Assembly (NCBI GenBank): GCA_018830485.1
Contig: JAHJRQ010000014.1
Location: forward strand, 1-32,336
Direction of reading: 5' to 3'
Source of the DNA: Pseudomonadota bacterium
GTDB lineage: Bacteria; Desulfobacterota; Desulfobulbia; Desulfobulbales; Desulfurivibrionaceae
Length of the DNA: 32,336 nucleotides
A program made the translations under genes and the position numbers. Below are positions 23,230 through 30,893 of the stretch, in pieces; within the stretch, counting starts at the first letter, position 1; the number at the start of each line of letters is the position of its first letter. The notes under the pieces were generated by a model that saw only the letters and a program-made list of their open reading frames with translations, ran no database searches and was not told where the DNA came from.

Positions 23230-23230
23230 T

Positions 23231-23353
23231 AACTAGTTAGCAGTTAGCGGCACCACATCTGCGTTGGCATCGGCCTGCTCATGTGCAATAGCACACTTCG
23301 CAGACCTCTTACTAGCCTCTGCGGCAGCAGTGAAGCGGCGCTGCTAACGAGTT
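23231..23353 (+). repeat. 123-bp inverted-repeat-bounded element (MITE-like?)
   Basis: AACTAGTTAGCAG (23231-23243) and CTGCTAACGAGTT (23341-23353) are inverted copies matching at 12 of 13 bases. Inside are smaller dyads, such as TGTGC/GCACA around a 4-nt loop near 23285. There is no ORF and no clear target-site duplication. It begins directly after the terminator and ends before the dapL leader, so it looks like an inserted unit. One copy in the window does not prove mobility. Confidence 0.4.
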
Positions 23354-23355
23354 AC

Positions 23356-23422: not shown

Positions 23423-24658
23423 ATGACCTTAATAAATGAAAACTATCTCAAACTTAAAGCGGGCTACCTCTTTCCGGAAATCGGCCGCAGGGTAAAAGCC
23501 TTTACCGACGCCAATCCCGATGCTAAGGTAATCCGCCTTGGCATCGGCGATGTGACCCAACCCCTTGCCCCGGCAGTGATCAAGGCTTTCCATGACGGGG
23601 TTGACGACCTGGCCCGGGGGGAATCCTTCCACGGCTATGGGCCGGAGCAGGGATACGACTGGCTGAGCACAATCATCATCGAAAAATCATACCAACCGCT
23701 GGGTGTGGATCTCTTGCCCTCGGAGGTTTTCATCTCCGACGGATCCAAATGCGACAGCGCCAATATCCTGGACATCCTTGCCCTGACAAACAAGGTTGCC
23801 ATCTGCGACCCGGTGTATCCGGTCTATAACGACACCAATGTCATGATCGGCCGTACCGGCGAGGCCAACGAAAAAGGCTACTACGAGGGGCTGGTCTATC
23901 TGCCCTGCACCGAGGCAAACAACTTTACCCCGGCTATCCCCAAGGAAAAAGTTGACATCATCTATCTCTGCTACCCCAACAACCCCACCGGTATGGTGGC
24001 CACCAGGGCAGAGCTGAAGGCGTGGGTAGACTATGCCAATGCCCAGGGCTCGATCATCTTTTTTGACGCAGCCTACGAAGCCTACATCACCGAGCCGGGC
24101 ATACCCCATTCCATCTACGAGATCGAGGGGGCGAAAACCTGTGCCATCGAATTCCGCTCCTTTTCCAAAACCGCTGGCTTTACCGGGGTACGCTGCGGCC
24201 TGACCGTGGTGCCGGTACAACTCACGGCCACGACAACGAGCGGTGAAAAGATCGCCTTGAACCGGTTATGGAACCGGAGGCAATGCACCAAGTTCAACGG
24301 CGTCTCTTACCCGGTGCAGCGGGCGGCAGCCGCGGTTTACTCCGACGAGGGCTGGGCTCAGGTACAAGAAACCATCTCTTTTTACATGGAAAACGCCCGC
24401 CTGATCAGGGAAGGGCTCTCCTCCGCCGGCATCACTTGCTACGGCGGGGTCAATGCACCCTATATCTGGCTCAAAACACCGGAAGGCATGAAGAGTTGGG
24501 ATTTCTTCGACAAGCTGCTCAACGAGTGCCATGTGGTTGGGACGCCGGGCAGCGGTTTTGGACCCAGTGGCGAGGGGTATTTCCGGCTCTCGGCCTTTGG
24601 CTCGCGAGAAAATGTGCAGGAGGCAATACGGAGAATCCAACAGAAATGGGGCAGATAA
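23423..24658 (+). CDS. dapL: LL-diaminopimelate aminotransferase
   Basis: DapL converts tetrahydrodipicolinate directly to LL-diaminopimelate with glutamate as amino donor, a one-step shortcut in lysine and peptidoglycan precursor synthesis found in many Desulfobacterota, chlamydiae and plants. The 411 residues match the family (about 410). The PLP-binding lysine is Lys249 in [20 protein letters not shown] and DAAYEAYI, both typical of fold-type I class I aminotransferases, precede it. The N-terminal [16 protein letters not shown] is diagnostic for DapL against other aspartate-family enzymes. GCAGGAGG precedes ATG 23423. It seems monocistronic. Confidence 0.95.
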
Positions 24659-29877: not shown

Positions 29878-30062
29878 AAATCCCCCGCCATTGAAGTGTC
29901 AGGAAGTGACATCGAACCTAACTACGTTAGGTGGGCGGTACCTGAGTTCCCTTGAAGGAATTCCACCGGAATGGATTCCTTTCCAGAAACAGCAAAGTCG
30001 CCCTCAAAATCAATGTTGGCTCGAGACACTCTCCCAGATCACTAACAAGGCAGGGGAAACCT
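29878..30062 (-). ncRNA. ssrS: 6S RNA
   Basis: 6S RNA binds the housekeeping RNA polymerase by imitating an open promoter. The minus strand here folds in the 6S manner. The closing stem pairs TTTCCCC-GCC (30059-30049) with GGC-GGGGGA (29889-29881). A large central bubble follows and holds a small 3'-strand hairpin, CCTAAC/GTTAGG (29931-29917). Then come a GGGCG/CGCCC stem (30003-29999 with 29937-29933) and an apical hairpin AAGGAAT/ATTCCTT (29981-29955). The bubble strand contains CGAGCCAACATTGATT, similar to the E. coli 6S segment with GAGCCGATATTT. The place right after zapA is the usual one for ssrS. Ends are estimates. Covariance-model support is still lacking. Confidence 0.7.
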
Positions 30063-30071
30063 CTGCACCAT

Positions 30072-30353
30072 TTAAAAATTCTTCTCTATTCTCTCGCTGA
30101 GAAAACTTATTTTTTCCTCAACCCGGTGTTTGTATTCTTCGTATTCCCTTTTCATTTTCACATATTTACTTGCGATGTTCAAGCTGGTTAAAATCCCCAG
30201 CTTATTCGCCGGCAATACATGCTGCGAGGCTTGTCCGGCATTCTCTAGTTGGGTCTTCACCAAAGAAAGAATTTCTTGCACATCTTTTTCCGGGGCATCG
30301 GTATAGAGCGGATACTCCTGGCCAAGCACTTTAAAGGTGACCAATCGTTCCAC
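30072..30353 (-). CDS. zapA: Cell division protein ZapA
   Basis: ZapA binds FtsZ filaments and bundles them at the division ring. The 93 residues fit the family: an N-terminal beta-rich head (VTFKVLGQEYPLYTD, about 5-19) and a C-terminal coiled coil (about 60-93). Translation starts at GTG 30353 with GGTGGT upstream. The 6S RNA gene follows within ten bases of the stop, as in many proteobacteria, and a ZapB-like gene precedes it on the same strand, separated by an inverted-repeat element. Confidence 0.9.
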   Translation of the reverse strand: MERLVTFKVLGQEYPLYTDAPEKDVQEILSLVKTQLENAGQASQHVLPANKLGILTSLNIASKYVKMKREYEEYKHRVEEKISFLSERIEKNF

Positions 30354-30406
30354 TAGGCACCACCATTGAAAGGGTTAACAGAATAACTCCCTGAAAGCAA
30401 TATATT

Positions 30407-30562
30407 TTCTGATTACCACTAATCTTCAGCCGGTTTATTTTCGTCATTCCGGCGGAAGACGAAATGACGTTCCGCAAAGTAAATTTTTGACACAAAACAC
30501 GCAGGATCGAATAGTTAACGCATAACACCCGGGTGCTGGCTGAAGTTCGATGGTAATCAGAA
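30407..30562. repeat. 156-bp inverted-repeat element between the zapB-like gene and zapA
   Basis: The 25-base arms 30407-30431 and 30538-30562 are inverted copies: 12 outer bases (TTCTGATTACCA) and 8 inner bases (CTTCAGCC) match exactly and the 5 between them differ. The interior has a CGTCATT/AATGACG hairpin (7 bp) and the 10-bp palindrome CACCCGGGTG, and no ORF. No target duplication is evident. It fills most of a 222-bp gap in what would otherwise be a compact operon, so an inserted MITE-like unit is likely; a regulatory long hairpin is the alternative. Confidence 0.5.
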
Positions 30563-30575
30563 GATGTTTTCACAA

Positions 30576-30893
30576 TCAGTTGCCAATCAGAACACCTTGT
30601 ACTGGTTCAGCAGGGTCCTTGCCAATACCGTTTGCCGAAGAGAGCGCCCCGAGTTCAAGGGGTGCGGATTTTTCCCACTTTTCAATGGAGCCAAGCAGAC
30701 CGGAAACCCGTTGATGGATATTCTTTTTTTCTTCCTTCAAACGCTTGACCTGTTCCTCAAGATCCTTCTTATCGAGCTCCAACCTGGCAATATCGGCCTG
30801 GAGTTTCACCTTGTCTCCCTGAGCTGAATCGAGGCTGCTCAACATTTTCTCGACATTACTCTCAAGTTTTTTCAAATCTTCTTCATATTCCAT
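30576..30893 (-). CDS. ZapB-like coiled-coil division protein
   Basis: The 105-residue protein is mostly one coiled coil (about 1-75, Lys/Glu/Leu-rich), with a low-complexity tail of about 30 residues. The location just upstream of zapA and the fold suggest a ZapB-type partner that links ZapA at the division ring, but short coiled coils are hard to assign by sequence. ATG 30893 is chosen because AGAGGAG lies six bases before it; an in-frame ATG at 30956 would add 21 residues containing that binding site. A promoter and a short hairpin precede it. Confidence 0.7.
   Translation of the reverse strand: MEYEEDLKKLESNVEKMLSSLDSAQGDKVKLQADIARLELDKKDLEEQVKRLKEEKKNIHQRVSGLLGSIEKWEKSAPLELGALSSANGIGKDPAEPVQGVLIGN

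Follow-up and report, generated by a model that had tools for sequence, protein, structure and literature searches.

A short insertion with IS1595-family ends and a CGTC-type REP palindrome between a zapB-like gene and zapA

The window, i.e., the whole stretch of DNA that was analysed, is a complete 32,336-bp contig (C11) of a 2.89-Mb host genome (26 contigs, 97.9% complete), and the 154-bp element that it contains between a zapB-like gene and zapA is almost certainly a non-autonomous MITE of the IS1595 family, presumably mobilised by the transposase of an IS1595-type IS. The insertion, its target duplication and an IS with matching ends were each identified, and the cargo, a degenerate CGTC-type REP palindrome, arrived in the same step.

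The element and its insertion site

The minus-strand gene order is zapB-like gene, zapA, 6S RNA and RNase Y, with the insertion a few bases past the stop codon of the zapB-like gene. Features of the region are as follows.

29878-30059, minus strand: 6S RNA (Rfam RF00013, 51.5 bits, cut-off 46.4)
30072..30353, minus strand: zapA, on the downstream side of the insertion, with 54 bits for Pfam ZapA (cut-off 23.8)
30400..30407, unstranded: left copy of the 8-bp target-site duplication, ATATATTT, in the ancestral form, same as in congeners
30408..30561, unstranded: probable MITE of 154 bp with IS1595-family ends (multicopy ends; site empty in congeners; ends common to IS1595-family IS)
30408..30431, plus strand: left end, TCTGATTACCA-CTAAT-CTTCAGCC, an exact match to other copies, with 1 mismatch relative to the left end of the IS in congener G003
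30442..30469, unstranded: degenerate CGTC-type REP palindrome, CGTCATTCCGGC-GGAA-GACGAAATGACG, from a host-genome pattern search and the definition given in the available part of PMC3733652
30470..30537, unstranded: remaining interior, to which no gene was assigned, resembling the host copy on C10 and MITEs of congeners G002, G004 and G010
30538..30561, minus strand: right end, TCTGATTACCA-TCGAA-CTTCAGCC, the reverse-oriented counterpart of the left end
30562..30569, unstranded: right copy of the 8-bp target-site duplication, AGATGTTT, with two substitutions
30576..30893, minus strand: zapB-like gene, on the upstream side of the insertion; its Pfam ZapB score of 24.3 bits falls short of the 31.5 cut-off

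An earlier note had described a 156-bp inverted-repeat element at 30407-30562 between the zapB-like gene and zapA. The presence of such an element was borne out by its inverted arms, multicopy ends and empty congener sites, while its length was corrected to 154 bp, bases 30407 and 30562 being part of the target duplication and outside the element proper. Arms of 25 bp were likewise found, with 21 matching positions in place of the 20 given before, the 5-base cores CTAAT (left) and TCGAA (right) having one base in common; inverted arms of 33 nt (30399-30431 and 30538-30570) are 79% complementary. The interior hairpin of the note was located at 30442-30469, and its view of the interior as non-coding agrees with a MITE that has no transposase coding capacity. 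The sole listed ORF of at least 60 aa across the element (30331-30573, minus strand, 80 aa) spans both ends and the flanks. The note contained neither the 8-bp duplication nor the IS1595 affiliation nor the identity of the hairpin as a REP. With a length of 154 bp and ends of 24 bp, the element is within the range of MITEs (70-300 bp, with TIRs of 15-30 bp), and its interior at 30470..30537 differs in host copies other than that on C10.

Evidence of insertion was obtained from the same gap in related genomes. Thus, zapA was located in 24 of 28 genomes searched (host included), and the locus was readable in 13 of 16 congeners, a zapA match being absent in congeners G002, G014 and G016. The distance from the zapB stop to the zapA start was 60 nt in 12 of these 13 congeners as opposed to 222 nt in the window, which is 60 + 154 + 8. 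The target AAATATAT (minus strand) was present once, with the element absent, in all 13 congeners, and the window on that strand reads AAACATCT-154 bp-AAATATAT. The gain in length is therefore that of one element plus one duplication, which indicates that the palindrome arrived with the MITE in one 162-bp step. A point against the MITE reading is that the left and right copies of the window duplication are alike at only 6 of 8 bases.

The thirteenth congener, G013, had a gap of 202 nt with the single AAATATAT intact. Its extra DNA (L127 1299-1445) aligned with one dapL-type repeat copy at 75% over a length of 87 nt (with E 4e-11, as computed against a set of seven sequences), which argues that a second repeat family landed beside the same target. 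The spot between zapB and zapA has apparently been used by two unrelated repeat families, the G013 copy being decayed and without inverted arms at the match. In the window, dapL was confirmed at 23423-24658 and the repeat element before it at 23230-23355; as the earlier note had suspected, the latter belongs to a separate repeat family, which had 37 other host-genome matches at E 1.7e-5 or better. Some copies of this family have AAACTGTTCAGCAG-type inverted arms.

The 6S RNA was directly downstream of zapA in the window and in all 13 congener loci, an order that resembles zapA-ssrS of E. coli. The block upstream of zapA, TATTGCTTTCAGGGAGTTATTCTGTTAACCCTTT (window 30354-30400), was nearly unchanged in the 13 congeners and possibly has a regulatory role. 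Since the element lies between the zapB stop and this conserved block, which is unbroken, it probably has little effect on the operon.

The strong predicted fold of the element, which was matched in stability by none of 200 dinucleotide shuffles (z -5.07 for one strand and -4.63 for the other), would also fit a functionally conserved riboregulator or other structured RNA of the zapB-zapA-6S operon with the arms as an RNA stem, and an element between co-directional genes would be transcribed. However, the element was missing from all 13 congener loci that could be read and copies were noted at unrelated loci, no Rfam family was found here at the gathering threshold, and promoter and terminator sites in the element were without clear excess over shuffles (2 as opposed to 1.2 expected and 1 as opposed to 0.8, respectively). 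A regulatory RNA is thus a highly improbable explanation. By the same comparison, the idea that the element brings in a promoter or terminator was rejected.

Copies of the ends and a transposase with matching ends

Among the checks proposed in the earlier note were a genome-wide copy search, comparison of the same gap in relatives and a search for a transposase with matching ends, and the outcome named there as adverse was a single-copy element present in all relatives. The element is multicopy and is missing in 13 congeners, where all readable loci were empty sites, and ends of this kind also border a transposase gene in a congener and in other genera. In the host genome, the ends were found at 21 sites with at most 3 mismatches as opposed to 0 for a reversed-pattern control, which indicates that recurrence of the arms is not due to chance. 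Outside the core, 13 of these sites were exact, 2 had one mismatch, 3 had two and 3 had three. Exact left-right pairs numbered six (C4, C9, C11, C19, C20 and C21, with one change in the right core of C19) and diverged pairs two (C10 and C2); unpaired ends include those on C5 (one left, one right) and C21 (one left).

A BLAST search of 58 genomes identified element matches in 19 (host included), representing 8 of 30 genera. In a phylum-wide search of 395 genomes, a left end in exact form with GTCATT after it was matched in 2, i.e., the host and G047, and this exact form is thus narrow; the G047 match looks like chance. From 42 MITE end pairs (at most 3 mismatches per end, collected with a query that contained the palindrome, related copies being counted as separate), flanking duplications agreed at 8/8 bases in 20, at 6/8 or more in 37 and at fewer than 6/8 in 5. 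Corresponding values for shuffled partners over 2000 trials were a mean of 1.1 (maximum 5) for 8/8 and a mean of 9.5 (maximum 21) for at least 6/8. Chance agreement is raised, as seen in these shuffles, because the duplication flanks are 93% A+T.

A complete IS of 1057 bp, with ends TCTGATTACCACTAATCTTCAGCT and TCTGATTACCATTGAACTTCAGCC and a perfect flanking 8-bp duplication, ATTTTTTT, was identified in congener G003 (JAJZPC010000003.1), so that the MITE has its ends in common with an autonomous element. This IS codes for a 315-aa transposase with matches to Pfam DDE_Tnp_IS1595 (3.9e-30), a zinc ribbon (4.7e-15) and NCBIfam NF033547 (188 bits, cut-off 75). Congener G010 contained a partial transposase copy with a stop within the frame. 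By inspection, no sequence common to the MITE and the G003 IS was evident beyond approximately 26 bp per end, and a simple internal deletion of the IS was rejected for this reason.

At E <= 1e-10, 17 of the 58 genomes contained transposase matches, and of the 17 genomes in the genus, 8 had matches to the Pfam transposase model, some perhaps outside the IS subgroup concerned. Neither sequence search nor the Pfam model gave a transposase match in the 97.9% complete host genome, and current mobility in the host is therefore unsupported. Among the matches listed, the nearest named carriers were Deltaproteobacteria bacterium SKS1.bin10 (the G003 record) and MAGs assigned the names Desulfoprunum, Proteobacteria, Desulfobulbaceae and Desulfocapsa.

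From 359 transposase relatives, the 80 best were taken, and 46 of these 80 were examined. An 8/8 duplication was noted at 25 of these 46 loci and one of at least 6/8 at 31, the ends at these duplicated loci being TCTGATTACC-like or CCTGATTACC-like, while the other 15 lacked an end pair or agreed at fewer than 6/8 bases (the pair was missing at one of them and weaker at the rest). Thus, the same ends bound IS1595-family IS of 1.0-1.1 kb with 8-bp duplications, and from these recurring ends the window element is identified as an IS1595-type MITE.

At all 31 IS loci whose duplications agreed at 6/8 bases or more (from the best 80 of 359), the transposase stop was inside the last 24 nt, and the C-terminus encoded in the right end was often LAEVRW-stop or similar. 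That the right end codes for the transposase C-terminus and stop explains the constant difference between left and right cores. The right end of the window MITE reads, on the plus strand, GCT GAA GTT CGA TGG TAA (A E V R W stop) and is a relic of the transposase C-terminus. Left-right asymmetry of an IS can thus arise from coding, the last transposase codons being in the right end.

The CGTC-type palindrome

A search for the palindrome pattern GTCATTCC[CG]GC-N4-GC[CG]GGAAT, in which 2 mismatches at most were allowed, gave 83 matches in the host genome and 0 for the control, as expected of a dispersed high-copy repeat. This pattern matched the window element at 30443-30465 and 30446-30468, each with 2 mismatches; the CGTC tag and 6 of 8 stem pairs are kept and the CCA tail is gone. 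The CGTC tag, the 8-bp stem with 4-nt loop and the CCA tail are complete in sister copies on C4, C9, C19, C20 and C21.

A GTCATT-type palindrome half was present in 41 of the 42 MITE interiors compared with 0.5% of shuffled interiors. The GTCATTCC type occurred in 34 interiors, 10-12 nt inside the left end, the GTCATTGCGAG type in 5, at a distance of 19 nt from this end, and the GTCATTTCG type in 2, at 45 and 52 nt; one interior had no type. As the query for this set contained the palindrome and expressions for the three types were written after the interiors had been viewed, a search with ends only was run to remove the bias. Of 65 places found, 62 distinct left-like ends, all from the order of the host, were read, and 49 of these had a palindrome within 70 nt (42 strict, 7 loose). 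The 13 ends without a match included 3 MITE right ends, 3 ends of transposase-bearing copies (two of the G003 IS and one of the G010 partial copy), one with a visibly decayed palindrome (C2) and 6 that were unexplained. Among random 70-mers from all collected loci, a palindrome-enriched source, 288 of 4937 matched. Palindromes of the GTCATTGCGAG and GTCATTTCG types were observed in the same IS1595 ends in other genera, at L077, L171, L172, L174, L075 (G045) and at L185, L187 (G032).

Given the CGTC-type REP in the interior and two Y1_Tnp (PF01797) matches above cut-off in the host genome, one with an internal stop, movement as a REP or REPIN was also considered, in which a tyrosine (RAYT) enzyme would take the place of the DDE transposase and the TCTGATTACC arms would be secondary. 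Yet the 8-bp duplications flank the TCTGATTACC ends and not the palindrome, and the same ends bound IS1595 DDE elements; among 48 such loci of sufficient length, the palindrome core was seen within 130 nt upstream of the transposase at only one. In addition, the available part of PMC3733652 reports no case of CGTC REPs on both sides of a tyrosine transposase gene. We consider RAYT-driven movement of the window element to be extremely improbable and retain its assignment as an IS1595-type MITE. A RAYT route may nevertheless exist for some palindromes, given the two Y1 (RAYT-like) matches in the host (G000 C16:19902-20234, with an internal TAG, and C20:26043-26333).

The surroundings of the palindrome were compared at 62 host-genome loci. 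A first clustering lumped 59 of the 62, half-palindromes linking all, and clustering by masked flanks still chained 39; since loci were chained in both, an inverted-arm test was relied on. Outer inverted arms at p <= 0.01 were noted at 16 of 62 loci, i.e., 6 IS1595-type MITEs, 4 loci with TGATGGAC..AACAACTC arms, 3 with CTCTTGCAAAAT-like arms (L292 partly via another repeat), 1 with GGGAACCTT arms (a second locus had p = 0.017) and 2 with other arms. Thus, the palindrome is also inside two to three further kinds of terminal repeat in the host genome. The other 46 loci were above p 0.01, and a TIR-bounded unit is therefore unsupported for most host CGTC palindromes. Ends TATTGCTTCGGTGG / TATTGACCCGGCG were observed around the same CGTC palindrome at L281, L300, L304, L305 and L307 (host), a small element family without significance in the inverted-arm test.

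It is possible, although we are inclined to doubt it, that CGTC REPs spread chiefly as MITE cargo via several unrelated transposases, with palindrome and ends exchanged as modules. Modular exchange is suggested by one palindrome in different ends within one genome and by IS1595 ends with three GTCATT palindromes in different genera.

Proposed origin and relation to known elements

In the mechanism that we propose, a complete IS1595-type IS with the same ends, either earlier in the lineage or in a neighbour, would supply the transposase, and this source IS may have been lost from the host lineage or may be located elsewhere. The transposase would bind the two 24-bp ends and cut the short element, presumably by mobilisation in trans and cut-and-paste, and insertion just past the zapB stop into an AT-rich target would be followed by gap repair that duplicates 8 bp. 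The interior represents cargo, including the CGTC-type REP palindrome, rather than transposase sequence, and a hairpin in the zapB-zapA transcript may well be near neutral.

The NEMIS, RUP and ERIC MITEs have other ends and other transposase families than the window element. Like it, they are of 70-300 bp with TIRs of 15-30 bp, non-coding and gene-adjacent, according to the available part of PMC3733652. In the same part of this source, CGTC REPs consist of a CGTC tag, a stem of 8-9 bp, a loop of 4-5 nt and a CCA tail and are mostly HH dimers. The 200-bp host copies are similar in their CGTC tag, 8-bp stem, 4-nt loop, CCA tail and tags-outside (HH) dimers. A difference is that the palindrome is here enclosed by a transposon that has ends and a duplication of its own, and the window copy has a degenerate stem, with 6 of 8 pairs, and has lost the CCA tail. 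The CGTC-1 dimers of H. neapolitanus are all within 41-bp palindromes, which the available part of PMC3733652 does not term transposon ends. There, Di Nocera and colleagues noted that CGTC REPs seem to be without a dedicated transposase, asked whether RAYTs or other transposases are involved and suggested that a broad spectrum of transposases might mobilise these repeats.

An IS1595-family MITE as such is not new, since an ISHwa6-related example (165 bp, IR 25, DR 8, 7 copies) is given for Haloquadratum walsbyi in the available part of PMC3852290. By these published figures, the latter element is comparable in being non-autonomous, in family and in size, IR and DR, but its host is archaeal and a REP palindrome is unmentioned in that part of the source. 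As described in the available parts of PMC8101967 and PMC12561309, the IS1595 family generates 8-bp duplications, which are A/T-rich in ISApl4. The partner IS agrees with this family in its DDE_Tnp_IS1595 domain, N-terminal zinc ribbon and 8-bp AT-rich duplications, whereas the window element has no transposase; ends of ISApl4 (IS1016 group) are GGGGCTGT as opposed to TCTGATTACC here (PMC8101967, PMC12561309, available parts). No paper that links IS1595 MITEs with REPs was found in the open-licence literature.

The element is ordinary mobile DNA, cleanly documented, and its useful part is the cargo. With IS1595 ends and an 8-bp duplication accompanying the CGTC-type palindrome at its arrival, the transposase question for CGTC REPs becomes directly testable.
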